A stretch of 64,000 nt of DNA from Hydractinia symbiolongicarpus. Taxonomy: Eukaryota; Cnidaria; Hydrozoa; Anthoathecata; Hydractiniidae. The stretch's first letter is position 1; every line of letters begins with the position of its first letter. The stretch is taken from contig NC_079877.1 of assembly GCF_029227915.1 (NCBI RefSeq), forward strand, positions 22,097,851-22,161,850, read 5' to 3'. Below the pieces are notes generated by a model. It saw only the letters and a list, made by a program, of their open reading frames with translations, was not told the DNA's origin and made no database searches. Positions 54-58,040 of the stretch are shown here, one piece after another. A program made the translations under genes and the position numbers.

Positions 54-3000
54 GAGTTGGATGACGAACGCAATCGCGAGGAAAAGAAGAAAAAGCAGCG
101 AGCTGCGAAAAGAAGAGACAAGCAGAACAAACGTAAGAAGAATAGAGAGGTTGAGACAGTGGAGGTTGGCACGAAAATAAACGGAATCCTGCCTGATAAC
201 GACGATGAAGATGACAATGATGACGAGGAGATTAAAGGTAATGTCTGTTTTTTTATCATTACTTCAATCGTTTGCAAACAAAGTTTGTTTTGTTGGTTTT
301 CTTGCTTTCTCAAACCCGTCAAATGAGAAAAATACTAGTCATCTAACAATGTAACCGTTGCCACATTTTCAATCCTTTAATCCCTCAAGCTGCTTAGTTT
401 GTTTCGTTATTTTCTTATTCTTCTGTTTAGACAACATTGTACCAACTGAAAATCGTGAAAAGGTTGTAGAAGACGAACTTATGTCAAATTTAAATTTGCT
501 ACACATATCAAACAGTTTACAATCAAGTACCGCGAAAACAGATCTTTCTTCAAAAGAAGTGGATTTAAAGAATGCAATGAATTTTAGAAAAAAAAGTAGA
601 AAGAAATCTGAGAAGAATAAACCTACTATGGATGACGACGACGACAAGTGCACTGTACACGCGTCGAAAGCGAGAAATGCGGAAATTTCACAACGCAGAA
701 ACAAAAACAAAAGTAAGGACGCGTATTGTTCAAGCGAACAAAACACAAAAACAACACCGACGCAAACTGTTGCAGAAACAACAGCCACTGTCGCAATTCA
801 AGGACCACCAGCCCTGAACAAAAAACGGAAACTTTGCGATAATAGTGTACTAGAAACTTCAAAATCGAACTCGGTTAACTGCAATGTGGAAATAAACAGG
901 AAGTCTCATAAAACATCCGGTGCATGTACGCAGAGTTCGTCAACATCTGGACCGAGTCGGGCGAAGGACAACAACACACGCAATTCGAGTAAACCCAATC
1001 CATCTGTAGGCTCTCGCGTTAACCACACAACGTCACTTACAGTGATCTCTAGCGTTGCTGTGGCAACGTTCGCGAAAATCACGACAACGAGAAGTGATCC
1101 GAGATCTCATCGTATAAACATGACACCTGTTGAACCGGTGGAGGACTGGGACGAGGAGGCCAATAACACCACCTACGACAAGGCTGTTTATTTCCGATCT
1201 GGTACGTTACACCTTAGTTTTGTGTCGTTAAAAGAACAGCATGATTACTGCACACTCACATTTTCTATGTTTTTTCTATGCTAGTAAAGTTTTCACGTTT
1301 TCTTAGATTCTCACTCGGCTACTTCTAACTCGTCCGTCTCCAGAAATGGATCGTTTGATGAATACAAAGAATCTGATTGGAGAGAAACATCAAAAACAGC
1401 CAGGTGAATAGGGTGTATTTCAGCGGCCTTTGATTTTGATAGGAAAGCCACATTTTGAGTAGCCACATCCCCATCTATACTCTTTGAAAATGAATAAAAG
1501 ACTTGACTGTCGTCTCTTTAGGTTGATCCTGTTTGAATTGGTTGTTCCAAATGGATTTTGTGGGCGTGTCATCGGTAAAGGCGGAAAGAAGATTAATATG
1601 ATTACTGTAAGCACGAGAGTTTCTCTTTGATATATATTTTCTACCCAATGCTTAGTTGAATTTATTATGTCTGACGTAACGTTGGAAAACATCACTTCCC
1701 TATTTTTATGCATGGACACTAATGTTCAACCAGTTCTCCCGTGTGTTTGCTTACAAAAGTCGCACGATGATCGCAAATTTCTTTTTTTATCTTTTTGTAC
1801 TGTTTTAAAAGTTTTTTGTGTACATTGCAATAAATTATCTCACCCCTGATTATTCAAGGTAGGGTCAGCTGGATAAAAGGTTCACTAATTTGATTCGTTT
1901 CTTTCATAGGAAGACTCTGGTGCTCAGATTACCATAGATAAACCGCCTTCGAACGTTATACCTGCCGATCGTGTGATTACAATAAAAGGTACCCCCACCT
2001 GTGCTGAACGAGCGAGACATTTAGTTACTAAAGCCCTAAATACGCCTAGTTTGAATAATCAAGGCATTTCTGTCGAACCGACGTCGACAATTGGTAATAA
2101 GGTGCCGAACGTATCGTCAATGTGCTCGACTGCTCAAACTGTTGTTAAAAGCGTTTCAAAACCGTCATGTTCTGTTAACGTCAGTGCTGAAACACGGCAA
2201 CCGCGGCTTTCGACCGGTAGACCTATTGGAGTAGATGTGATCGTCACTCCTCAACTATCCTACAGCAAGGTAGCGACGGGTGATATTTCATTGCAAGATC
2301 TTAAAAAACGCAAGGAACCACAAACTCAGGTTTGTACTTTCTTCCATGTAAAAATAAATTGTGTATGAAACAACGATAAAAAACTAGTGATTTAATTTTC
2401 GCAGAACCTCGAATTAATAAAGGTTTGTCTCTGGTAGGTCATGACTGGAAACAATGCAACGTCACACAATTCACAAGATACACAATTCACAGGGAATGTG
2501 AACAAAAAATCTTCTCCGCCGAGCAAAGGTAAAATATAGACTATTCTTTGTGTCTGTGTTTGTTTTTGTCTCCTTCTTACGATTCGTTTCACCATTTTAG
2601 ATTACGTACCTTCCTCGTCGCACGCCACGTCGTTACAAAGTGACGGCTTTGCTACGAAAGATTTTTCTTATTTTACAACGCAAGGTATGCTGTTACTTAG
2701 CAACTGCATAATGTTTTATGTTGATTTTCAAAAATCCAATGTATGTGCACGCAACATGTTTTTAGGTAATCGCCCGCACTTGAATGACGAGAAAACTCAG
2801 GTAAAAAGCGTCTCTTGTAATAATTTTTATCAGCATTTCTTCTCTGCCTCCAGAATAGGTATTAATGAAAAATTAGTTTTTTAGAAATATTTGCTTTAAT
2901 GATATACAAGAACTACATATTGCAATGTCTACTATTAGTTTTTTTCCGCTACTCCTCCGTAACCGCTACTCAAATGAGGCGTAAGCGTGTTTATCCTTCC

Positions 3001-5242
3001 TGGACCGTTCTGCTCGTCTTCTGATGAAATGTTTTTTTCTTATTGATTAGACTCCATTGCAAAGCATATCAGCTTTCGTTGAAACCAAACAAGGTTTATC
3101 TCGGTAAGTGTTTTTATCAGAGTGGATGAATTAGCAAACTTCTGAAGATATTAAATTATATACTACACGTTATCCACTACACCGTAGTGCCCATGAGTAA
3201 TATCTGTCTTCTGAAGGTACAAAGAGTAGGTTCTAACTTGTATTTTTAGGGAAAATCTTCCGTGGAAAGTAGCAGAAGCAGATGGAGGTGATGCATTGTT
3301 GTTCGACAGAAGTAGAAGCATTAGCTGGACTGGACAGGTAAAGCATTTCTCATGCACATGAAAAAGTCGCTTATCATTTGTAGGTTCGTAAACAAATCGA
3401 GAAAGTTAGTGAAATTGAAATGTTATGCGTTAGCGTGTAAGATTGCGGGACACCAGATCATTCTAATTTTAACGCAACTATCATTTAAAGTCAATTCACT
3501 TTTTTTTGTTGTTTATGATAGCGTTAATACAAAGGATTTTTTTTAATGCTAGTCAAAACTAGATGCTTTCTCTAATGGTGCCGGACCAGGAAATCGCTCG
3601 CTTTCAACGGAAGCCATTAATGATCGACAGGGAGCTGTGGTGTCACCATGGAATCTCATCTCAAAACATGGACATAGTACAGACGAATTTTCGGATGAAC
3701 AAGTATTTGCTGAAGAGGTTGGTTGGTCGAGTAAAGCTAAGATAGATAGTGCCGTGTCAACTGGTAACGAAGTTTGGGAATTGTCTTCAAGTCCAACGAG
3801 TAGCGTAAGTAGTAGCAAAGTTGAACTCACTAACATACTCGACAATGACAGCGGAATGAGCAGTTCCAACCCACTTGGTCCGACACCGCCGTCTGTCCAA
3901 AGCGAATCTCGCATAAGTCTCCAGGAGCAACAATATCTTGAGACAACCATGGATAATTCCACGTGGCTGCAATCGCGCGGGGCGTACAGTGCACCATCTT
4001 CACCAGCACTTCAACGCAGCAACGGAAATCATCCGGGTGTATGTTCTCCAAAACAGCAAAGCATGCGCTCGCATCCATCTATGGAGGAATTAAACAGTAG
4101 TCGTCCGTGGAAAAAAAATATTTACAGTGAAACACAGTGTTGGAACGAAAAATCCGTCGTCGATCTTAATGACAGACACGATAAATCAGAGGCTGGTGCA
4201 GATACGCACGACAGTGGCTTATCTTCTCCGCATGGTTACAGCGAGAAACATTTAAAACATCCGGATACCGATCCCATACCTGGCGTAGGAACTACACCTT
4301 GGTCGGCGGAACGCTTTCAAGACGTTCATACAGCGTTGCATCTCCTTCGTCATCTTTCTCTGGATAAATATGCTGCTAAACTCGAGGTTAGTGTTGCACA
4401 TTTTGTACTTTCAAAATTTTGCATGTTTTAGTTTTCATGTTTTAGAAGACCAACGAATTGACTTGTTGTGGCATTTTTTTGTATTTCTTGTATAGTTATT
4501 CCTGTTGTTGTGTTTAGGAACACGGTATCAGTTTGGAATCGCTGCTGACCTTAACTGAAAAGGATTTACAAACGTTTGGAATACCGAAGGTGATATCTAT
4601 GCTATTATTTGTAACAAATTTCTTGCTTAAACGTGATGTTTCTCCCGTAAGCGTAAGTTTTGTTTTTACTTTCTTATAGGGCCCCCGATTAAAGATACTG
4701 AAGGCTTGTGACGTTATAAAAAGTAGGTATCTTCTTTGTATTTTTTATTTGTTTGTTTGTTTGTTTTATCTGTTTTTTATATCCATTTGACACATTCTTT
4801 ATTTTGTGTTATAGATCAACGATTTAATACATATGGACAATCGAATTCAGATCTCTCTGCTCAAACCTTTTTTGCAACGTTACCCAACAATGTCCAACAA
4901 CCAGCGCAACAGTCGATGCCACCTGAAGGGACCTCAACATTTAACAACAAACACCAACAGGTCTTTTCTGCACAGTATGGTTACCCACCAGATTTCTTAC
5001 CATATCCCGGAGTCCCACAACAGCCCTACAACATGTTGATACCAAACAATCAACCGTTTATTCATCCCTCCACACATCAAAATCACCCGGTACAACCAGC
5101 TGTGTTCACGAACGGTGGAGAATTCGCACTCCCGCATCACTCGGTGGAACAGTTGCAGCACCATAATCAAACGATGATTCCTCCCACGTATGTGTATCAA
5201 GAGAATCCGTTTTACTTTTACCCCCCGCCGCCGCAGTCGTGA
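54..5242 (+). CDS. MASK/ANKHD1-like KH and SAM domain protein, 3' part (5' end outside window)
   Basis: Fourteen exons join in one open frame: 54-237, 431-1201, 1307-1403, 1522-1606, 1910-2329, 2438-2528, 2601-2684, 2766-2800, 3051-3103, 3250-3337, 3553-4386, 4518-4589, 4680-4722, 4815-5242. They total 3,285 nt, ending in TGA; all introns are GT-AG. The visible protein opens with a Lys/Arg-rich segment followed by an acidic run, then a long Ser/Thr-rich linker. A single KH domain follows across exons 4-5, with the GxxG loop in RVIGKGGKKI and a partner motif DRVITIKG. After another disordered stretch comes a SAM domain across exons 11-13 (motifs LDKYAAKLEE, LTLTEKDLQTFGI, LKILKACDVI), then a Gln/Pro-rich tail. 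The basic linker plus single KH resembles ANKHD1/ANKRD17/Drosophila mask, whose ankyrin repeats would lie upstream of the window. Bicaudal-C also combines KH and SAM, but has several KH modules. Family assignment is inference; the KH and SAM calls are firmer. Confidence 0.7.
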
Positions 5243-5449: not shown

Positions 5450-7422
5450 ATTAGGAGTTAATTATTTGCCCTTTTTGGAGAAATATTAGGTTAGCGTTTC
5501 AAACGAGTTTATTATGCCATCTTTCTATTATGCATAACTTTCTATTGTGCATAAACGAAAAAGAAGATTTGTAAGGTTTACACTATATTTTTTTAACGTA
5601 AATAATGTGTCGGGCATAGCTAACTTTTCTTCAAACTTTTCTTTTCTTTGGATAAGTATCGTTTGTTTACAAAATCCTGCCCGGTTTACTGCGCTACCAT
5701 ATTTTATGTAATAATTTTAGATTGGTTAAAACTTAACTATTCCATATTTGTAAAAAGTTATTTCAACCCGACCGAGCTGAGATCATGCTCATCAAATATC
5801 CATATACAGTCGACGCTCGTTATCTCGAACTCCCAAGGGACCGAAAGAAAAGTTCGAGATAGCGAGCGTTCGAGATAGCGGAGGTTCGACATAACGAGCG
5901 TATTTCATGAAAAGTTCGAGATAACGAGTTTTTCGAAATTTTTTGAAATTTTCAGAAAAGGGCAAGGGTCAGTAGTTCGGTCATAAGTATCTGTGGGCAA
6001 GCTTTTAAAATTAAAATTCACCTGAATTAAGGGTACTTGAAGGAACTGTTTGGTCAAGAAAGGGAAATGGATAATAAAGAAAACAACATTTTGCGTACAT
6101 GTATACTTATTGTTGATTACAATTACATACATTATTTTTGACGGAAAAATTCAAAATACTAGTTTGCTTCTTGTTTTTCATTTCACTTTTAAGAAACAAA
6201 TCTTCAAAGCGAAGCAGGAGGCGTTGCATGTCATTTCCATCATCAGTGAATAGACAAGCATTTTGTAAAGTCTCCACTGCAGTGTTTATTTCTGATTTTG
6301 TTGGCTTGCTCACTGGCTCATCAAACACCTCGATGACATCGGCATTTTCATCATGCTCCTCGTCATTCTCATCTGTACTTGGCCGTACCGACTCAAGGAT
6401 TTCTTCATCAGTCACGGGATTTTCGATTGTGGTCAAATCTTGGTCAATATCGACAACATCACGGGCCGAGAGATCAGCAGGAATAATGGTATCGTCAATG
6501 GCACGCAGTTGTGTGAGATCTTTCTCCAGTTGTTTAAATGGATCATCAATATCATCAGTTGCATTCTGTTGAGCTTTCTTGGAAATCTTTGATTTCTTGA
6601 AGCAATTTACGATGGTTTCTTTCTTCACTTTGTCCCACGACGAAACAAGTATTTGAAGAGCACGCAGAATTGAAACTTTTGGAAGATCTTTGCCTTTTTC
6701 TAGGTTTTGAATCATCATGTTGACCAATTTTTGGCGATAAAGAGACTTAAGACATCTTATGACACCTTGGTCCATCGGTTGTGACACAGAAGTTGTATTT
6801 GGAGGTAAGAAAATCAATTTAATGTTGGACAGTCCACCGACATCAGGGTGAGCGGGACAATTATCGATGATCAAGACTATCTTTCGACCTTCTTTTAGAA
6901 ACATTGCATTGATTTCTCGCACCCACTCTTCAAAAAGAGAGCTGTCCATCCAACTCTTCTTCTGCGCTCTTTACCTGCAGGGTAGGGATGTTACATTTTT
7001 GAAGCACCTTGGTTTCTTCGATTTACCAATCACAAACATTGGTAGTTTATCTCCGACAGCATTGGCAGCTGCAAGCCCGGTAATTCGGACTTTGCTATTT
7101 TTACCCCCAGAGCATTTTTCGGATTTGTAGTGATACGTTTTATTTGGCAAGCATTGGTAGAAGAGACCGAATTCGTCGGCATTGTAAATATCTTCTAGTT
7201 TGTAGTTAGTTAATAATGTTGGTAAAGTGGTTTCAAACCAAGATGCTATCATATCAGGTTGAACAGAATTGCTTTCACCAACGACCGTCTTGAACGTTAC
7301 ATTGTGCCTGAAATAGAAAATAAAACAAATATCGACTTGTATAAAAGATTTATTGTTAACCTGTTCGTGCATTTTTTCGAATACGAATGTTCGAATTTCA
7401 ATTCGAATGTTTTTAAAAATTC

Positions 7423-7902
7423 TTGTGTGAACACCCTGTGAACATTATCATTATTACTTGTGCATGGCAACAAGGAAAAGCAAACCAGGAGAAAAAGGAG
7501 AAGATGTATCTTGCAAAAATGATAATTGATCAAAATTTAATCAATGTTGTAATGATAAAAGAATTTGAATTGGCTTCACATGTTAAGGGGTTCCACGTTT
7601 ATAAAGCATTGTGGACTCCAAAAAATGGGGAGACTTTACAATGCGAAGGAGAGCCTAATAATCCCGTTGACAAATATGCTGTGTGTGTCAAGAAAGAAAA
7701 CAAGATAGTTGGACATTTACCACTTGGAAAATCTGCTAAAACAATATTTTATTTCCTCAGAGCTGATGAATTAAGCTCGTGCAAAGTAACTGTGACTGGA
7801 AAACCAGTTAATTTGGGAGATGGTGAAGGCATGCAAGTGCCATGCAATTTGACATTTATTGGAACGGAAAAGTGCATCGAAATACTCAAGAAACATATTT
7901 AG
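7423..7902 (+). CDS. HIRAN-like domain protein nested antisense in the Tigger transposase intron
   Basis: Intact 159-codon ORF on the strand opposite the transposase, entirely inside its intron (7308-7975). ATG codons at 7423 and 7504 are both plausible starts; homologous sequence begins near FELASHVKGFHVY. The core follows the HIRAN pattern: a hydrophobic strand, then EPNNPVDKYAVCV (N-D-A signature), then IVGHLPLGKSAKTIFYFL, then a Cys/Val strand and a closing strand near PCNLTFIG. HIRAN domains, known from HLTF/Rad5 helicases and as stand-alone proteins, bind DNA 3' ends. Here the domain stands alone, without helicase or nuclease. AATAAA follows at 7936-7941. It may be a transposon passenger gene, a captured host gene or a transposon-spread accessory factor. 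Assignment is by pattern recognition, so moderate confidence. Confidence 0.72.
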   Translation: MCEHPVNIIIITCAWQQGKANQEKKEKMYLAKMIIDQNLINVVMIKEFELASHVKGFHVYKALWTPKNGETLQCEGEPNNPVDKYAVCVKKENKIVGHLPLGKSAKTIFYFLRADELSSCKVTVTGKPVNLGDGEGMQVPCNLTFIGTEKCIEILKKHI

Positions 7903-7935
7903 TTTATGTTAGTCTTTTTAAGATTTTAATATCAA

Positions 7936-7941
7936 AATAAA
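7936..7941 (+). terminator. Poly(A) signal of the HIRAN-like ORF
   Basis: AATAAA 34 nt after the HIRAN-like stop codon, on the same strand. It lies still inside the transposase intron, so the ORF has its own possible 3' end. Confidence 0.45.
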
Positions 7942-8486
7942 ACCAATTCGAAAAAAAGAGATTTAATATTCTTACCTTTTTTTCCATTTACCAAGCCAAC
8001 CGTCTGAAGCTTTGAAATCTTCTACTCCAAGCTCCTGTGCATAGCTTTTAGCTTTCTCCTTTAGTATTGTCCCATCGATTGGTATGTTTTTGCTTCGTTG
8101 TGAAACAAACCATTTGAACACGACAAGATCTACTTCTGAGAATTTACCATCTCTGATCTTTCTTTTCTTGCTCGAAGATTTTTCGAGAGCAGAAAAAAGT
8201 TTTTCCTTATTGGCTAGCCAAGTTGATATCGTGTTTTTAGGCACCCCGTACTTTTTAGCGATATCTTTATTTGGAATACCTTTTTCCAATTCTTTTAATG
8301 CTTGGCATTTTTCTGTCAAAGTTTTTACAACGAGCTTTCTTTTCGGTGGCATTCTGACAAAGGAAATCACAAAAAAAACATTGCAAAATCTACCTGTTTT
8401 ACAATGGAATGTCTTCTTTTTATTGCAACATTTTGTGACTTTAAAACAAGCAGTGCAAGGTCTTCTTTTTTCAAAATTCCTCTTCA

Positions 8487-8686
8487 AGAGTTCGAGATAA
8501 CGAGCGTAAATCAGTCCAAGGGACTGAGAAAAAAGTTCGAGATAGTGAAAGTTCGAGATAACGGAGGTTCGAGATATTGAACGTTTTTTTGCCTACTATT
8601 GCTTACAGAACTCAAGGGACCGAAGAAAAAGTTCGAGATAGAAAAAGTTCGAGATAACGGAGGTTCGAGATAATGAGCGTCGACTG
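8487..8686. repeat. Duplicated terminal module at the right end of the Tigger element
   Basis: The right end contains two successive copies of the terminal block. An inner copy at about 8487-8585 runs from the GAGATAACGAGCG motif through a GGGACTGAG block to GAGATATTGAACG. The outer copy at about 8609-8686 has GGGACCGAAG and ends in the true terminus. Both carry several GTTCGAGATA motifs. Confidence 0.7.
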
Positions 8687-8736
8687 TAATAGCAAAATAA
8701 TTTTCGATCGGCCCCGAGTTAAACTTTGATATAATA

Positions 8737-9149: not shown

Positions 9150-9650
9150 TCAGGCCAAAATTGGTGTTTGTTTTCGACAAAATTTGGCACAGTTAACAAA
9201 AAAAAGTATCCTGAACATGATGGTGACATCAAAATTTTGATTTCTTGTTACCTAAAAGTCATTTTAGGCAAAAATTGGTCCAAAAATTATAACTACTTTA
9301 TTTTTGACAAAATTTGCCACAGTTAACAAATAAAGTATGCTGAACATGATGGTGACATCAAAATTTTGATTTCTTGTTACCTAAATGTCATTTTAGGCCA
9401 AAATTGGTCCAAAAATCAAAACTACTTTATTTTTGACAAAATTTGCCACAGTTAACAAATAAAGTATGCTGAACATGATGGTGACATCAAAATTTTGATT
9501 TCTTGTTACCTAAATGTCATTTTAGGCCAAAATTTGTGCAAAAATCAAAACTACTTCATTTTCAACAAAAATTGGCAGAGTTAACAAAAAAGGTATGCTG
9601 AACATAATGGTGACATCAAAATTTTGATTTTTTGTCAACAAAATGCCGTT
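9150..9650. repeat. Tandem array, 129-bp unit, about 3.5-4 copies
   Basis: The phrase CTGAACATGATGGTGACATC recurs at 9211, 9340, 9469 and (one change) 9598, an exact 129-nt spacing. Each unit also carries a CAAAATTTTGATTTCTTG block and an AAATGTCATTTTAGGCCA block. Outer units are more diverged than the middle two. No ORF spans the array. Confidence 0.92.
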
Positions 9651-10088: not shown

Positions 10089-11454
10089 CAGTAGAATCCC
10101 GATAACTCGAACCCCCACGGGACCGAGAAAAGAGTTTGAGTTATTAAAAGATGGGTTTTTTTTTCAATGAAAACCATGCTACATATATCATTGCAAAAAG
10201 TTTCTAATGTCGGCCCGAGTCAATTTAGTCAAATATATTTATCAATAACAATGGACAAGGAATCGAGCTTTTGCTGTATGTCTTCCCAACAATATGGGAT
10301 GTAGTCGTACAGATACTGCACTCACTTACAGATACTATGTCTCTCGAATGTCACCAACAAATCGGTGCCGGTGAAGCATCATCATCATCTTCTTCTCCAC
10401 CTTCTTCTCCGTCTCCTTTCTATGTCTTTCTATCAAATCGTTAGTTACCTGAAAGCAATAGGGCTGTATTCATTACGTATTCGTTTGCAGAAATGATATC
10501 CTCATAACTGTTGTGCTGTGAAGATAAAGATCGCCAACTTTTTGGATCTCACTTTGAAGACCTTTGAAGGGGTCGCCATCATCAGTCTAGGTAGATTTCT
10601 GTTGATCTTTTGAAATTCCTGCTTTTGCAATACAACGATGTGGAGATTTTTACTTTCTGCCATGCAAGATCCAAGATTGAGCATTTTCATTGCATCCAGA
10701 ATCGCAAAATTTAGGAAGAGCCTCTCCTTTGTTTACAGGCGCAACCAGCCTTTCCAAAGCTAATAATCTGTAAAAAGCTTTCAAAGAGCGTATGACCCCC
10801 TGGTCCATTGGTTGAAGCTTCAATGTGGTATTAGGTTGTAGGAAAACGAGCTCTATGAATTTCAGGTTATCGATCGCTGGATGTTATCTATCATTAACGC
10901 TACTTTCTTCTTCTCGCTTGTAAACTTGCATCCACCTCCAGTATCCGTTCCTCAAACAATTTGCTACTTATCCAGCTCTTATTTTAACTTCTGAATCGGC
11001 AAGGCAAATGGTTGACTCCTTTGAAATAGCAAAAAGATTTCGATTAACCAAGACAAACATCGGTATTTTATCCCCCGTCGCATTTGCTGCATCCATTCCA
11101 GTAAGACCAATCTTACTGTGTTTACCCCCAGTGCAATCCTCAGATCGAAGATGAAGAGACTTGTTAGGTTGCATGCGATAAAAGAACCCAAATTCATCTG
11201 CATTATAAATTTCATCAAGTTTGTATTTGGATAAAATTGTTGGAAGGTTGATTCGTTTATTTTAAATTATCGGGAGAATCCTACTCCAAGGGACATGAAT
11301 ATTGGTTTGACTTATCGAATGTTCGAGTTATCGGGGGTTTAAGTTATCGGAGTACTTTACGAGAAAGTATGGGTAAAGGTTCAAGGAATTTCGAAATCGG
11401 TTTGAGCTATTGAAAGTTCGGGAATCGGGGGTTCGAGTTATCGGCATTCTACTG
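10089..11454 (-). mobile_element. Second Tigger/pogo-like element, decayed
   Basis: The ends are inverted repeats: CAGTAGAATCCCGATAACTC at the left, and at the right its inverse with one mismatch in 20. These differ from the first Tigger element, so this is a separate subfamily. No TA duplication is visible at the flanks. Length is about 1.37 kb, so much of the interior is lost. Motifs of the GAGTTATCGG type repeat near the right end, paralleling the subterminal repeats of the first element. Confidence 0.85.
10500..11265 (-). pseudogene. Tigger-like transposase remnant
   Basis: Minus-strand fragments in different frames still show the DDE_1 landmarks: a NADEFGFFYRMQPNKS block near 11160-11210, then GMDAANATGDKIPMFV, a degenerate LMIDN block near 10890, a QPMDQG-like block near 10800 and a diverged C-terminal part near 10500-10690. 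Frameshifts separate the pieces and the N-terminal DNA-binding domains are missing. No function is expected. Confidence 0.75.
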
Positions 11455-11990
11455 CATTATGTTGTGACAAATTTTCTCTTACGTGAAATAAGCCGGTTAA
11501 ATATTTAAAAAAAATTATTTTTTAACCAGAATTCTGGTTTTAGGAAGTGTCTTAAGGAGAACGTTTATTTTCACAAATAAGCATTTTTGATTTATTTTGC
11601 GGCAAAAACCAGTGCCGCGAAAAATTTTAAGCAATTTCCATCCAAATTGTTTTTTGATACTTTCTTACTCTAACTGTCTTTCCATACTGGCATTTTAAAC
11701 GATCTTTAGAATTCTCTGGAATCCTTCTTTTCCAAAATTATCTCATTACGGCGGAATCATAAGCCTGTTTGCATAGAAAATCTGCGTGTCCAGAGAAAGG
11801 TTTTATTCTCCATCATTCATTGCTCAATAATTCATAAAATTGTCTCGAAAGAAGAGAGTGTAATATTTAAGAGCATCTTTGTTTCCTGGGGCAGCACGAA
11901 CTCTGTCAACTCCCGTAAATGATGTAAATTTGTATGCATCTTAAAATTAATCATGTTACGAGAAGTTGGAATAATCATCGTTTATCAACG
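11455..11990. other. Spacer without gene
   Basis: No exon is seen. GCGGCAAAAACC and GCCGCGAAAAA words at about 11600-11625 hint at an old MITE end. Nothing else is recognisable. Confidence 0.4.
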
Positions 11991-11994
11991 GAAC

Positions 11995-12365
11995 GCAATG
12001 GAATGCTGTGTTGATAGTAGATTCAATAGAACGCAATGGAACGCTGTGTCTGTAGTAGATTCAGCGGTACGCAATAGAACGCTGTGTCAGTAGTAGATTC
12101 AACGCAACGGAATGGAACACTGTGTCAGTATAAGATTCAACGGAACTCAAACGTTGTGTCAACAGCAGATTCAATGCAACACGCTGGAACGCTTTGTCGA
12201 TAGTAGATTCAACGGTACGCATTGGAACGCTGTGTCGACAGTAGATTCAATGGAACGCAATGGAACGCTGCGTCAGTAGTAGATTTAACGGTACACAATA
12301 ATAGTAAGCTGTGTCAGTAGTAGATTCAACATACGCAATTAAACGCTGTGTCTGCAGTAAATTGA
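11995..12365. repeat. Tandem array, about 38-bp unit, roughly 10 copies
   Basis: The unit reads approximately GTAGATTCAACGGAACGCAA then TGGAACGCTGTGTCAGTA. Successive GTAGAT anchors fall at 12017, 12055 and 12093, a spacing of 38, and degenerate copies continue to about 12365. Copies differ by substitutions and small indels. The array is more G+C-rich than its surroundings and has no sustained ORF. Confidence 0.88.
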
Positions 12366-12972
12366 AGGTGTTTTTTTTCAGGTTTGCCACCGAATTTTCA
12401 TTTCTCAAAGTTTATGTTTCATTTATTGACGACAAAGGTGTTTGTTCAAGCTGAAATAACATGTCAAAATAAAAGACAAACAGTTCAAGGGTGAAAGAAT
12501 AGTAATGTTCAAGTTTTTCCTTGTTTACTCAGTGCTTTCATTTTTTTAAAATTTTTATTATGATAAATCAGCCAACAAATAAATAAGAAAAGTTTTAAAA
12601 ACACATGTTAAAATTTTAGTAGTAGCACGAAGCTTTTCGTAACTGAGTTACATTTTCAAGTGATAAGAATATCCTAAGCTAAAAACCTTTATACAAAATA
12701 TCTACAATAAAATAATTAATTGATTTAATTAAAATGTTCTACCCAAGGGAATACAAGTAAAAATCATGGACAAGCGAAACAAAAGAAAGAAAATGTGCAA
12801 AATCACCATGTGTAAAAATAAAATAAAAGAAACAAAAACTAATTGCCCACGGGAATAGAGAATTAAAAACAGGCGGTTGTGTAAATAAAGCTATGTAACT
12901 CCATTCCTAAATAACAAAAGTGATTTGATTTCTTTTTGATCATTCAACCTTTTTCTCTTTCAATTTTTACCA
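12366..12972. other. Upstream region of the LicD-like gene
   Basis: A/T-rich sequence with no recognisable exon. It should contain the promoter and 5' UTR of the gene that starts at 12973. The last 70 nt are pyrimidine-rich (TTTCTCTTTCAATTTTTACC before the ATG) and could hold a splice acceptor, so a 5' non-coding exon is possible. Confidence 0.35.
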
Positions 12973-14163
12973 ATGCATAGACGCTGGAAAAGCTTACTTG
13001 CTTATTTTGTTTGCTTCGGATGTTTTGCAATAATGACATTTTTAACGGAAGAAAATAACAGAACCTCGATAAAAATGACTGGCATGGTGCTTGATAACAA
13101 AAAATTACCAAACTTTGAAAAAATCAGAAGTTTTGGTGGCCACACTAAGAAAGTATCTTTGAATGCGCTCACAACTACAACAATATCCAGTGGCAAACGA
13201 AAATGGAAGCAAGCTATGAGATGGAATTACAAATTAAAAAATTCAACCACATCTTTATTTCGGTCAATAGAAAGAACAGATAAAATAATTATCGAGCAAC
13301 CTTTAAAAGCTGGTTTATGGACCTTTAATGACAAAAAAGTAGTTAAAAACTACGCTGAACAGGACCGAAGAATTTTGTGTGAAAAATGGATGTACGATCC
13401 AGCAGAGATGACGTTACGATATAGCAAAGAAACTCATGTTACGCATGATTCGTGTCCATTTCCCTACAACGAGACAATTAAGAAAATAGTATCCAGCCGA
13501 GGTAAAGTTATGTTTAAAGGTTGCACTCAACAAACACTGAAATGTAGAGAAAGTGCACATTATGACACAGAAAGAAAGATGCGTATAAATACGCCTCCGT
13601 GCTGCAGACAACATTTGTTGCAAATGTTAAATCACACAACCCATCTTCTTAGAAAACACAACGTCACGCATATGTTAGTGTATGGAGGCATAATTGGATG
13701 GTATCGGTATAAAAATATTGTTCCTTACGATGTCGACTTGGATATTTTAGTAGATTCGAAGCAGTGGAAATCTCCTACAATGAAAATAATCTATGTTTCA
13801 TTACGTGAAAAATACGGATATTTAATAAAAAGACAGAGACGAAAAAAACAGAAAATTATGTTTAGTGCGGTTAATAATCTCAATATAGATCTATGGCCGT
13901 ATTTCGTTAAGAACTCTGGCAAGGAGGCTGGTAAAGAAGGATTTGATGCGGATAATCGTACCATTATTTGGACAGACGAAGCTACTATGAAAACGGACCT
14001 TTATGAAGATATCATCCCACCAAGATTAGATAGTTTTGCTGGTTTCCCGATGTTTATTCCGAAAAATCCGGTAAATCATTTGAATCGCCAGTATGGAAAA
14101 AACAATTGGAGGAGAGAATTGAAATGTAGTGAAAAAAATTCTGACGGAAATTGCTTAAAATAA
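12973..14163 (+). CDS. LicD/fukutin-family type II membrane protein (putative phospho-sugar transferase)
   Basis: Single-exon ORF of 396 codons. After a short basic N-terminus (MHRRWK) there is one hydrophobic segment at about residues 7-24, as in Golgi type II membrane enzymes, then a Lys-rich stem. The catalytic half carries the LicD/fukutin signature: a GGIIGWYR helix near residue 238, PYDVDLDILVD with acidic residues near 253-257 for metal/nucleotide binding, and NIDLWPY near 304. This matches the nucleotidyltransferase-fold family of bacterial LicD and animal fukutin/FKRP, which transfer phosphocholine or ribitol phosphate to glycans. The Cys-rich segment at about 180-210 may form disulfides. 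The substrate cannot be deduced. Cnidarian-type lineage expansions of such genes are common as I recall, so I give no symbol. Confidence 0.8.
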   Translation: MHRRWKSLLAYFVCFGCFAIMTFLTEENNRTSIKMTGMVLDNKKLPNFEKIRSFGGHTKKVSLNALTTTTISSGKRKWKQAMRWNYKLKNSTTSLFRSIERTDKIIIEQPLKAGLWTFNDKKVVKNYAEQDRRILCEKWMYDPAEMTLRYSKETHVTHDSCPFPYNETIKKIVSSRGKVMFKGCTQQTLKCRESAHYDTERKMRINTPPCCRQHLLQMLNHTTHLLRKHNVTHMLVYGGIIGWYRYKNIVPYDVDLDILVDSKQWKSPTMKIIYVSLREKYGYLIKRQRRKKQKIMFSAVNNLNIDLWPYFVKNSGKEAGKEGFDADNRTIIWTDEATMKTDLYEDIIPPRLDSFAGFPMFIPKNPVNHLNRQYGKNNWRRELKCSEKNSDGNCLK

Positions 14164-26897: not shown

Positions 26898-29075
26898 CTA
26901 AATTTTCATAACATCTTTTAACAAGTCTTGTGATGAATGTTTTGTAAACTTATCAATTAAAATTTCTGTACCAGAGTCTAATGCTAACTCATAAGGAGTT
27001 CTTCCTTTTTTATCTTTCACATCTGGCGAAGCATCATTCTCCAGCAGAATTGCTACAGCATCTTTTCCAGTAATACCAAGTAAAACTGCTTCATGCAATG
27101 CAGTTGTTTCCTTCATTCCGGAAGTCTCGTTTATATACGCTCCTGCTTTAATAAGTATTTGAATAATATCAAAATGTTTCTGTAAAATACAGAGCTTCAA
27201 CAAAGGAATATTATTTTCGTCTTTTGTATTAGGATTGACATCTTCAAGATCCAGCAATTCTTGTACTTTGTCCTGGTCTAATGTTTTTGTAGATTTGATC
27301 ATGTTTAAAAGTTTTAAGTTGTCTTCAGATAATTTTGAGAGTTTAACTGCAATCTTTTCCTTTTCAATGGCTTTATGTGTTTTCTTTTTTCTGGCTGAAT
27401 TTGGTCTTGAATTAGCAGAGCCAGGTCGCTGTCTACCAGATGATGGCCGAGATCCAGACGCCCCAGACTTTGCATTAGAGCTAGTTGTCATTGCATTTAT
27501 GAGGGTTTGGCCAGACTGAACATTTTTCAAGCCTTTTTTGGCAATCTTGTTTACATCTTCAGCTCTTAAACCAAATCTTACAGTTAAAACAAGCTCTGAA
27601 TCTTCAGTGGATTCTTCAACAGAAGCAGTTATCAGACGAGATATAATATGTTTGCTAAAAGACTCTCGAAACTCTAAATTATTTTGTGTATAAACTTTCA
27701 AATGGTGATTAACATGCTCAACTTGTTGACGCCAAAATCCTTTGCCTGGACTAGGCTTTGCATTTATTCCAGAAAACTTATCCACATTTGATAATACACC
27801 ATCACCTGCTTGAGTTGATGCATTTTTAGACCTCTTCTTAGATGTTGGTTGGAATGGTACTTTTCGCCAGTTAGGACTCTCACCTTTAGCTAGATCATGA
27901 AGCATTTCTGATGCTGATCCCATCTGGTGTTTTACTGACAGCTCGCCATTTTCTAGGATTTCTTCAAAATCTTTTTGGAGTGGAGCAGGTAAAACCTTAC
28001 CACATGAGCAGCAATACTGAGAGTATAAGCCGTTTTCTGTAAAACAAAGCTGACATGCGGTAGTAGCTGTTGGTGGTTGAGGTTTCTCTCTACACCAGTC
28101 ACAAAAGCGTGCATCAGCACTGTTTACTCTGCTACAAAATGGGCAAACAACATAATCACTAGATGGTCTTGGAGTTTTCGAGATACGTGGAGATGATTTA
28201 ATTTTTAATTTTTCATCACAAACCAAACATTCTACTGCATCTGGGGGATTTGTTGTTCCACAATTTGCACACTTATGCTCATTTTTACATTGTGTTTTCG
28301 AATTTGTTTTTATTGCAATATCACACACAGTGCAAAATGACAGCTCAGAGGGAATTATTGAACCACAATTAGCACATGGAAAGGTTTCGAAGGAAGGTGG
28401 GACAGGTGGACTTCTTATGCGCCCAGGCGCAGGTGGAAGGTTGGATCCACAGCCATTACAGAACCTTGCATAAGGGTCTGCTGGTCTTAGTGTATTGCAA
28501 CGAAGACAACGCATTGCATTGTCATAATCATCATTTGACTTTTCTATTTCACGTACAGATGGTGAATCAGTTAGTACTTTCTTTACAACTTCACCAGCAA
28601 CTTGTGGTGGCGTTTTCTTAAAATGTTCTTTACGTATAACTTTCTTAAACATATTTCGTTCAATCTTGTTAGAATCTTCTAAATCCCTTGGTAGTGCTTG
28701 CTCCTCCCAAGTTGTATTTAATTTTTGGTCAGTTTCTTCATCGCTTTTCTCCTCCACCGGATCAACTTGAAATACTTTTGTGTTTATCGAACTCTCCTTA
28801 GTTCCATCTTTAAGCACAGCTATTGCTTTTACTGTTCTCTTGCCTGGATTCAAGGTGAAAGGTTTAGAATACTGGTATGTTGTCCTGTCTCCAATTTTTT
28901 TGAATGGATCAGGCTTGCTACCATTTAGTGTATAAAATAACAGACAGTCTTTAGTATTTGAATGCACTTCCACTAATGTTGACGCATCAATCATCCATTT
29001 ACGAGAACCAGTCGTACCACTTCCTGGTGCTTTTAAAGGAATTATAACAGGTACTGAAACCATACCAGCACTCAT
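26898..29075 (-). CDS. DZANK1: Double zinc ribbon and ankyrin repeat protein 1
   Basis: One uninterrupted 725-codon ORF. Residues 1-103 form the chitobiase C-terminal-like (Fn3-related) domain typical of DZANK1, with VPVIIPLKAP, LLFYTLNGSKPDPFKKIG and VKAIAVLKDG. Five CxxC pairs of zinc-ribbon type follow: about 190-209 (CLRC...CNGC), 234-251 (CANC...CTVC), 269-286 (CANC...CLVC), 311-328 (CPFC...CDWC) and 341-358 (CQLC...CSCG). A Ser/Arg-rich linker leads to ankyrin repeats at about 600-715 (TALHEAVLLGITGKDAVAIL, GRTPYELALDSG). DZANK1 is associated with centrosomes, cilia and intraflagellar transport in vertebrates. An acceptor-like TTTTCAG sits 25 nt upstream of the ATG, so a 5' non-coding exon or trans-spliced leader is possible. 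Lack of coding introns contrasts with ACTR8 and ATPAF2. Confidence 0.95.
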   Translation of the reverse strand: MSAGMVSVPVIIPLKAPGSGTTGSRKWMIDASTLVEVHSNTKDCLLFYTLNGSKPDPFKKIGDRTTYQYSKPFTLNPGKRTVKAIAVLKDGTKESSINTKVFQVDPVEEKSDEETDQKLNTTWEEQALPRDLEDSNKIERNMFKKVIRKEHFKKTPPQVAGEVVKKVLTDSPSVREIEKSNDDYDNAMRCLRCNTLRPADPYARFCNGCGSNLPPAPGRIRSPPVPPSFETFPCANCGSIIPSELSFCTVCDIAIKTNSKTQCKNEHKCANCGTTNPPDAVECLVCDEKLKIKSSPRISKTPRPSSDYVVCPFCSRVNSADARFCDWCREKPQPPTATTACQLCFTENGLYSQYCCSCGKVLPAPLQKDFEEILENGELSVKHQMGSASEMLHDLAKGESPNWRKVPFQPTSKKRSKNASTQAGDGVLSNVDKFSGINAKPSPGKGFWRQQVEHVNHHLKVYTQNNLEFRESFSKHIISRLITASVEESTEDSELVLTVRFGLRAEDVNKIAKKGLKNVQSGQTLINAMTTSSNAKSGASGSRPSSGRQRPGSANSRPNSARKKKTHKAIEKEKIAVKLSKLSEDNLKLLNMIKSTKTLDQDKVQELLDLEDVNPNTKDENNIPLLKLCILQKHFDIIQILIKAGAYINETSGMKETTALHEAVLLGITGKDAVAILLENDASPDVKDKKGRTPYELALDSGTEILIDKFTKHSSQDLLKDVMKI

Positions 29076-30946
29076 CTTGTTTATTGTTTATAAGCCACTG
29101 AAAATGAAAGATAAAAAGTTATAGTTAAAATAATAAATCCAAAGTAAGGGAAACACAAGTAAAATTTAAATGCTTTAAAAATTGCATCATCCATCATTGA
29201 GTATTAGGATGGGAAGGACAGGTGCATGTTTCTACAGTTCATTATGTGCCTTAAAGAAAACATCTACACTTAAGGATTAAAAAATCAATGAACATATGCA
29301 GGTACGTTCATCCACTGTTATCACTAATGATAACAATGATCTTATATAATAACGTGCTATGTCTGTAACAGGCATAGTGGAGGTGTAAAAATGCTTGTTT
29401 GCCTTAAATGCTAATCAACAAACTAAACGTCATGAGTTCAATAACATTAATTTAATGTCAATACATTTGAAGTAATAAAGCCATTAGAATGCACTTATAA
29501 CTTGAAGGCCAAATAATTTGAAAACGAGTGGAAATAATCATCTCCCGTGTGGGTAACTAGAAAGAGACCAAAATTAGGCCCATTTTCCAAAGCTGGGTCA
29601 ACACAACTGTTTCTAACAGACAGGTTTATGACATTTTTAAAAAACCATTAAACCCCAATACCTATGTAACGGTTCATCAAAAATACATGATCCTATACAT
29701 TTTCTTAATAAGCGTTTCAAGCTCTACAGTGGCGAAGTTATAGTTTCTGATAAAAAAAATTGTGTATCAGCAACTCATTGCTGACGTCAGCAAATTTTTT
29801 TAAACTGTTATATATCCTTTACTGCTTGTCACCAGTGTTTGATGATCTCAATGGGCAGTCTAGGTGTACTGTGATGTATTGAATGTATGTAAACATCTTT
29901 TTTTCTTTCTATAGTTTGTAGCATAAAGAAAAACAATGCACTTTTTAGTAGCTGTGGAATTTGTGGGGGAAAAGTTTCAATTTTTGTAAAATTGGTCTTA
30001 TATAAATACTTTCAAAAAAGCTGAATTATCTATTTCTTGTACATAAATGCTGTTAAGTAGGTAAAGTTATCAACGTGTCAATGTAAAATTTGTCAACACA
30101 CTACTTTTACTTTAAGTTTATTTTCAGAACATTAAAAATGGTTTGTATACAAAGATTGTAATAGTTATTTTAACAAAGTAAAAATTAGAATATCTTATTA
30201 AAACAGAATTTAATATTTATTATGGATTGTCTGTAACAACGATGTACAGAAGTTTTTTTCTGATGTTTTTATAATTTTTATCTCAGCAATCACAGTGTGT
30301 AGGCTAACAGGGGCCTAGGGATCTCTACATTGTCTAAAACAGCTTAACCGGCAATTAGAAACTCAAAATGTCTCTACAAACCAGTTTTTTCCCAGCCAAA
30401 ATACAAAATTTATAAATGATGGCCCCCATTTTTTCATAACTCTTTTAAGGAATAAACATTTTATCATACTTGTAAGTATTTACAAAAATAGGACAACAAA
30501 AATACATGGCTTTAGCATATGCATCGTCTTTTTTTTTAGTATAGAACGTATATAGTTTCTTTATGAAAGTATATATATATATATATCCTCTCTGTGATTA
30601 AAAATATCCAGAAATGAGAAATAAGCGATTCTCAAGCATTTTAAAATTACCTGTCTATCCCCAAAATTGGTATACCAATGATGTCTAAATTGACCTGGAT
30701 CAGCCCCTGGCTAAAATGAATTGCAGCAATGGAGAGGATATAGATGCTTGTTTGTTATTATCATATTTTTAGTTAATTGGTTTATTATATATATATATTT
30801 AAGTGGTCACCTGTTGTTTAAAAGTAACAAAGATAAAAAAGTGAAAAAAGCATTGTATTTTCAACATCTATATAATTGTAACATTATTTTAAATACTTGA
30901 ACACCAATTAATAATTGATAAAGTGTCACGTAAGTTATTTGGTGAA
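29076..30946. other. DZANK1 upstream region and spacer
   Basis: No coding exon recognised in about 1.9 kb. Short (TA)n runs occur near 30571-30587 and 30788-30800. The DZANK1 promoter and any 5' non-coding exon should lie here. Confidence 0.4.
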
Positions 30947-56899: not shown

Positions 56900-57045
56900 T
56901 ACACATCCTTCGGGAGAGTAGTGTGTGTCTTCCTATCCAAATGAAGGTAACGGCGATAGGCGTCGCTTGACCACCTACCTAGAATCTGTATAGTGCTGTG
57001 GGGAATACCAGCTGACGCAGCGGCTGAAACGCCACCGATATAGCA
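56900..57045 (-). pseudogene. Tyrosine recombinase C-terminus (DIRS)
   Basis: The minus strand reads GGVSAAASAGIPHSTIQILG then RWSSDAYRRYLHL. This matches the last catalytic block of DIRS tyrosine recombinases: a helix after the HxxR motif, a His/Ile-Gln-LGRW turn, and the nucleophilic Tyr in RRYLHL. The upstream HxxR and N-terminal half are missing because the sequence joins almost directly to the RNase H end. Confidence 0.78.
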
Positions 57046-57059
57046 AGATACAGCAAGAT

Positions 57060-58040
57060 ATTAACAATTTGTTGAGCAGTGAAAAAGAACATATATATAT
57101 CAGGGTCATTATGCCCCTGTCCCTACAAATATCAGTTTTCCACACTTGGGCTATAGATGCATTGTCGGTATAGAATATTACTTGTTGGTTACGCCATTCA
57201 GAACCCCAGGTCATGACAGCTGCTACAATGGCAAAAAGTTCCTGAACGTTTATGTGAAAATGACAAGGTAACTTCGGCCAGGGTGAAGAAAACCAGCAGT
57301 GCTTATACACTGCTCTAAAACCTAAACCTGAGGCATCTGTATACAGACATAAAGAGGCTGCTGTAACCGGCTCTTTTTGAATGAGGCATACCCCATTCCA
57401 TTCAGAAAGAAATTCCAACCACCACCTAATGCCCGCCCGAGTTTTGGCATTGAAATAAATGTGGTGGTTCAAGCAAGAGACTAAAGTGGACAAATTAATC
57501 AACCCAAAAACATTCTGCCGGTTTAACAACCTTCAATGCGAAGGATAAAGACCCAATTAAAGAGAGAAGCTCGCGTTTGGTGTACTTTTTCTTGTTGTGC
57601 CAGCTTAGCAGATTATCCTGCAACTCTGTATACTTCTCTGTGGGTAGCCGAATGATTTGTTGAGATATATCGATCTCAATTCCTAGATATGTAAGTGACT
57701 GTGCAGGCCCCACTGTTTTGTCTTCGGCTAAAGGCACTCCTAACTCAGAACAAAGAGACTGGATAGCATAGAGATGTGTCTCAACCTCTTCTCTTGATTT
57801 CCCACAGACAAAAAAACATCAAGATAGTGTAGGACAAAAGGAATCCCTAAGACCACGATAAAAAATCCAACATAAGACGTCTGCGACTGTGTTGAACATG
57901 ATGGGAGATGAACGGCTACCAAAAGGAAGACGTGGATCAATAAAATAATATCTCTGCCAACAGTAACCTATTAAACCCCATTGTCCTGTCTAACAGGACA
58001 AAGCCTAAACGCATGCCTTATGTCCACTTTAGCCAGAAAG
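57060..58040 (-). pseudogene. DIRS-type reverse transcriptase and RNase H
   Basis: KVDIRHAFRLCPVRQDN (about 58030) is RT motif A. After a break come LPFGSR and GIPFVLHYLD (about 57810), where the second Asp of the catalytic box is lost to an indel. Then LTYLGIEIDISQQIIRLP and KYTKRELLSLIGSLSFALKV (57495-57737) mark the thumb/connection. The RNase H part (56975-57529) shows LYTDASGLGF, HINVQELFAIVAAVMTWG and FYTDNASIAQVW with its acidic residues. Several frame changes make it inactive. Confidence 0.87.

Follow-up and report, generated by a model that had tools for sequence, protein, structure and literature searches.

A HIRAN-domain gene borne antisense to the transposase by Tigger-like pogo transposons of Hydractinia symbiolongicarpus

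Tigger transposons have been described with a single open reading frame (ORF) of about 492 amino acids (PMC9219625), and the group is held to be polyphyletic (PMC7325037). The TBE and Tec elements of ciliates, which belong to the wider Tc1/mariner transposons, carry extra ORFs, one of them in the complement in Tec, and the extra genes named in that account include no HIRAN (PMC7325037). The HIRAN domain of HLTF binds 3'-OH ends of single-stranded DNA (ssDNA), and the N90A-N91A substitution impairs HLTF function (PMC11237066, PMC4666394); a link between HIRAN and bacterial mobile DNA was suggested earlier (PMC2292703). Here a 64,000-nucleotide stretch of the hydrozoan Hydractinia symbiolongicarpus (NC_079877.1, positions 22,097,851 to 22,161,850; hereafter the window) was analysed, in which a Tigger-like pogo transposon carries a HIRAN gene on the strand opposite its transposase. 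A literature search, with subscription journals and Repbase reports outside its coverage, found no report of HIRAN in pogo or Tigger elements. Accessory genes of transposons are themselves known, and what is new here is the unexpected domain and the layout.

The window element (5807-8686) is a Tigger-like pogo transposon of family A, one of five families (A to E) distinguished below, and is assigned by its terminal inverted repeats (TIRs), its TA and the same ends in other copies. It is like Tigger and pogo elements in its TA target, TIRs, CENP-B_N domain, Tc5-type helix-turn-helix (HTH), DD30D catalytic spacing and length of about 2.8 kb, whereas the elements described here add an antisense HIRAN gene and, in families A to C, a transposase intron. 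The HIRAN frame is open on the plus strand from 7417 to a stop at 7900-7902, wholly inside the transposase intron of the minus strand, which runs exactly from 7308 to 7975; an earlier note on this DNA had read this nesting correctly. That note gave the gene 159 codons, and while the frame is indeed open over that length, this version starts at a TTG (7423), so that the start was corrected to the first in-frame ATG, at 7504, giving a gene of 132 codons (7504-7902). This ATG looks like the real start because the protein begins MDLAKMII in all 16 other family-A copies readable there and MDLVSMII in family D. An AATAAA at 7936-7941, also noted before, is a candidate polyadenylation signal as judged from sequence alone. 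The earlier statement that the gene is free of frame damage holds for the frame, but the copy is not pristine. It alone lacks 9 nt (the GKF of GKSGKFAKT): each of the 16 further family-A copies that can be read at this point has the longer form, and the representatives of B, C and D keep GKF or GRF. It also has MY, whereas all 16 family-A copies that, the window's apart, are readable at that position have MD.

An out-of-frame upstream ATG at 7464 opens 21 codons (7464-7526) that overlap the HIRAN start and form a possible upstream ORF. A frameshift of the N-terminus involving this ATG was considered and dropped, because the MDL..MII start is common to the family-A copies and family D and because the structure model places the stretch in strands. 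An ORF arising by chance was likewise set low: open frames of at least 161 codons occurred in 12 of 5,000 Markov-simulated introns and ATG frames of at least 132 codons in 16 of 5,000. The period-3 signal is weak, being matched by 108 of 5,000 shuffles.

Sequence profiles and a predicted structure both bear out the HIRAN-like signature that had been claimed. Against Pfam PF08797 the window protein scores 20.3 bits (E 4.9e-4), below the cut-off of 24.7; another family-A copy scores 20.3, C 21.6 and D 23.0, B has no match, and the family-E protein clears the cut-off at 34.1 bits. Comparison with the HIRAN domain of HLTF gave an E value of 2.6e-4. A bacterial HIRAN profile, made from 36 of 66 fetched loci that were picked by eye for full and varied domains and in which the scan motif fixed several columns, scores the window protein at 28.8 bits, the best of 2,000 shuffles reaching 5.6. 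The predicted fold is that of HIRAN, the HLTF-like barrel of six strands with two helices, and its structural matches include the HIRAN domains of HLTF and Rad5; an AF2 model made without an alignment was of low quality (pLDDT 46), and its Foldseek matches (TM 0.24) were set aside as proof. In the structure model the protein is little beyond the HIRAN domain itself and, in contrast to HLTF and Rad5, stands alone, with neither a SNF2 nor a RING part. Bacterial and phage HIRAN proteins are 15-25% identical to it in the alignment used, and no relatives outside the genome were confirmed in IMG/VR (HIRAN and transposase queries), phages, plasmids or GTDB contigs. These results support the window protein as a HIRAN domain that is transposon-borne and nested antisense in an intron.

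The pairing of HIRAN and transposase extends well beyond the window. In the host assembly (480.9 Mb, 76 contigs), the best 150 of 846 candidates found with the window HIRAN were scored and divided by identity to the window protein into bands, each of which may mix families: A at 95-99% (19 matches), B at 59-69% (32), C at 50-58% (55), D at 46-49% (23) and E at 40-45% (21). Transposase exon 2 as query yielded 140 places (best 138 of 690 candidates scored) and exon 1 yielded 150 (best 150 of 600). Among the best 150 HIRANs, 91 of the 92 with an exon-2 match within 2.5 kb and 95 of the 97 with an exon-1 match lie on the opposite strand; 68 are nested between the exons, 11 lie upstream of both, on the expected side, 14 are accompanied by exon 1 alone and 11 by exon 2 alone, and 2 are arranged otherwise. 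The other 44, of which 19 fall in band E, have no Tigger match, and all four of these solitary HIRANs that were read (L123-L126) have opposite-strand DDE remnants beside them. Viewed from the transposase, 90 of 135 merged loci have a HIRAN among the best 150, each of them opposite and upstream. The pair occurs in two layouts, nested in the intron in families A to C and head to head in D and E, and TIRs were located for B (L116, L120), C (L118, L112), D (L117) and E (L119); a clear Tigger TIR was looked for in L115 and none was seen.

Other copies keep the HIRAN ORF. Its absence or decay in them and a predicted fold other than HIRAN were the two outcomes that the earlier note had named as refuting its reading, and neither test refuted it. 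Fourteen of the 18 family-A copies have HIRAN undamaged, while a transposase without early stop, judged by frame, was found in two of the 18 (L105 and L111); a strict rule based on the window's own C-terminal stop scored the transposase intact in none of the 18. Eleven copies, the window's and ten more, align without a break along the full length of the element, L106, L107 and L109 in two pieces, and the remaining four have larger deletions or truncation. Of the 17 family-A copies besides the window's, 16 share its intron donor and acceptor; L114, which is truncated, does not. The length-adjusted excess of disabling lesions is marginal (P 0.047; 14 copies without large deletion) and is not relied upon. 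An empty-intron copy was sought in two family-A loci lacking HIRAN and was not found, L121 being an internal deletion and L122 truncated.

With family-E proteins as queries, 24 of 25 full-length HIRAN matches have no stop and all 25 lie head to head with a transposase, the two ORFs being 5 bp apart in 22 pairs. The locus L119 (G000:C1:12064200-12069200), for example, holds an intact transposase of 534 amino acids, intronless as in the family generally, with the HIRAN ORF 5 bp away in the head-to-head arrangement. Because the HIRAN protein is 100% identical in 10 copies, family E moved recently; its true start may be a later ATG.

Comparison of one representative per family reveals that the HIRAN proteins of the five families are 34-57% identical to each other. 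Among A to D, nonsynonymous divergence (dN) is 0.40-0.54 for HIRAN and 0.42-0.50 for the transposase, and between A and B the HIRAN codon positions 1, 2 and 3 differ by 0.37, 0.20 and 0.64, a pattern that shows, at the level of sequence, coding constraint on HIRAN between families. The identities of HIRAN and transposase correlate across families (r 0.88; 5 of 120 permutations). The DDE-side frame of B and C starts a little ahead of the point at which exon 2 of family A begins, while that of D and E is continuous there, which suggests a single origin of the intron-nested state, the splice sites of B and C being putative.

The recurrence of the HIRAN-Tigger pairing in five diverged families argues that the HIRAN gene probably helps the transposon to move or survive. 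The fuller reading, to which we give roughly even chances, is that these elements form a Tigger-like pogo lineage with a true second, antisense HIRAN gene, most likely an accessory of transposition. The HIRAN protein would bind ssDNA or exposed 3' ends of the DNA, either on the freed transposon or at the break left in the donor, and might thereby shield those ends or channel their repair; the antisense layout would suit two opposite-strand genes in a compact element, perhaps with shared regulatory DNA. If HIRAN is a conserved second gene, this Tigger lineage would be a two-component system, unlike the single-gene descriptions, and the gene would link transposition by cut and paste with the way 3' ends are recognised in fork reversal and break processing. 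Many HIRAN genes of the host genome would be explained as transposon genes, the nested and head-to-head layouts would offer a natural case for how a gene enters its neighbour's intron, and family E, with its identical HIRAN copies and intronless transposase, makes the role of HIRAN directly testable.

Several observations weigh against a conserved, end-binding accessory gene. Forty-five of the 135 merged transposase loci have no HIRAN among the best 150 of 846 matches. Among 13 near-full family-A copies HIRAN diverges by 0.0109, no less than the two exons of the transposase (0.0105 and 0.0166) or the non-coding intron (0.0094 and 0.0067). Synonymous divergence (dS) between families is saturated, and undefined in most pairs, so that no dN/dS value is given. 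The correlation of HIRAN and transposase identities drops to 0.46 without family E, and the trees of the two proteins (five sequences) differ, with supports of 31-72; descent of the pair from a single ancestor is therefore likely and yet not proved by trees. The purifying selection raised in the earlier note accordingly has two sides: coding constraint is plain between families despite the saturated dS, and none is visible within family A, as expected if copies drift once inserted.

The residues at the HLTF positions also count against that reading in part. When the published NN90,91 was placed on the alignment of HLTF with the window protein, Y72 corresponded to V32, N90 to N52, N91 to N53, Y93 to V55 and D94 to D56. 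The D94 equivalent is constant across the five families and that of N91 is retained everywhere but in the B copy L120, N being present in five of the six B copies read; H31, Y33, W37, K57 and Y/F58 are constant across families, and the alignment of six HIRAN sequences from five families has 25 invariant columns out of 163. N90 is N in family A only, whereas Y72 and Y93, the base-stacking residues of HLTF (PMC4666394), are replaced in all families (by V/E/A and V/M/I/H, respectively) and N96 is Y/F. The full HLTF-type set of N90/N91, D94 and the stacking Y72/Y93 was thus not found, and HLTF-type 3'-end reading appears only partly backed by residues. With Y72, Y93 and N96 replaced and N90 confined to family A, the DNA-binding mode of transposon HIRAN may differ or be lost; the protein resembles HIRAN in fold, and 3'-end reading by it is hypothetical.

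A more specific version of the accessory role, which we regard as unlikely, has HIRAN occupying the 3' ends in the post-cleavage complex and so preventing HLTF/Rad5-type stripping of the transposase, the pair being kept as an antisense cassette whose layout would switch between head to head and nested. HLTF uses HIRAN and its binding of 3' ends to strip Cas9 from cut DNA, and the isolated HIRAN domain inhibits both this stripping and end resection in trans (PMC11237066). Because of this inhibition in trans, a related alternative was proposed in which free HIRAN would act as a decoy, competing for 3' ends with the host's own HLTF/Rad5-type proteins and thereby keeping the post-cleavage complex from being stripped or the break from being processed too early; a protein that is little more than a HIRAN domain would suit this role, whereas the missing stacking tyrosines speak against it, and it seems doubtful to a similar degree.

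Regulation of the transposase is another improbable alternative, on a par with the decoy. The HIRAN gene or its antisense transcript might limit transposase expression, by antisense interference or by binding of the protein to the element's own DNA, and so keep copy number tolerable. The antisense orientation in 91 of 92 HIRANs with a nearby DDE match among the best 150, and the 5-bp distance between ORF starts in 22 of 25 family-E copies, would be in keeping with this, but a pure antisense RNA role needs no conserved protein, and between A and B codon position 2 differs by 0.20 against 0.64 at position 3. Somewhat less probable still is a host-like repair role, in which HIRAN would act outside the transposition complex and steer the element to one post-excision repair route, for instance one at replication forks. 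The HIRAN domains of HLTF and Rad5 work in fork reversal and break processing (PMC4666394, PMC11237066) and the predicted fold matches both, while the transposon protein has no motor, RING or other partner domain. Least probable, and largely refuted by the coding constraint between families, is a host HIRAN cDNA or gene fragment captured in the intron and hitch-hiking without function, to which the post hoc near repeat described below and the unconstrained divergence within family A would lend themselves, but against which stand open frames kept in five families at 34-57% protein identity with saturated third positions, and the same pairing in two different layouts; a recent one-off capture, one form of the host-gene capture that the earlier note had listed, is likewise set low.

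In the window element, the 24-nt left TIR without the TA (5807-5830, plus strand) has one mismatch to the right TIR with which it pairs (8663-8686, minus strand), TA target-site duplications read from the sequence lie at 5805-5806 and 8687-8688, and a search of the window at up to three mismatches confined the repeat to these two ends. The transposase, on the minus strand, comprises exon 1 (7976-8352; Pfam CENP-B_N and HTH_Tnp_Tc5), a 668-nt GT-AG intron (7308-7975; GTAAGA...TTTCAG) and exon 2 (6107-7307; Pfam DDE_1), in which 30 residues separate the second aspartate from the third (DD30D); TA duplication, TIRs, CENP-B-like and Tc5-like HTH regions and a DD30D DDE_1 domain, as in Tigger and pogo, are all present. 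The nonsense codon reported earlier is a premature TAA at 6971-6973, after 237 codons. Near repeats of 14 nt (13 of 14 matching; 7317-7330 and 7934-7947) flank the HIRAN gene, and excising the stretch between them would leave a 51-nt GT-AG intron; such a repeat was reached in 29 or 120 of 5,000 simulations, depending on composition, in a post hoc test.

Elsewhere in the assembly, L112 (G000:C10:12638301-12647693) holds a family-C Tigger at 1165-3708 and a family-A copy from 3712, 3 bp away, one of the two having inserted beside the other. Family-D and family-E HIRANs adjoin within 2 kb at G000:C12:8535250-8537194, and more HIRAN groups are related to family E at 66-74% and 42-43%, some with many near-identical scores.

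A second Tigger-like element in the window (10089-11454) is internally deleted; it has its own TIR, with one mismatch between ends, and transposase remnants at 10536-11246, and the region where HIRAN would lie is lost. Near the two Tiggers are a 129-bp tandem array (9167-9635; 3.6 copies, 93% matches) and a 38-bp array (11985-12352). Open frames with a KH domain at 355-5242 share the strand of the HIRAN gene and resemble the final part of what we take to be an ANKHD1/ANKRD17-type gene, the Tigger lying about 560 bp past the last stop. Farther along are a 407-codon open frame with a LicD match (12940-14160), a 729-codon open frame with double zinc ribbons and ankyrin repeats (26901-29087), and retroelement remains (56978-57532) with an RNase H match just below the cut-off.
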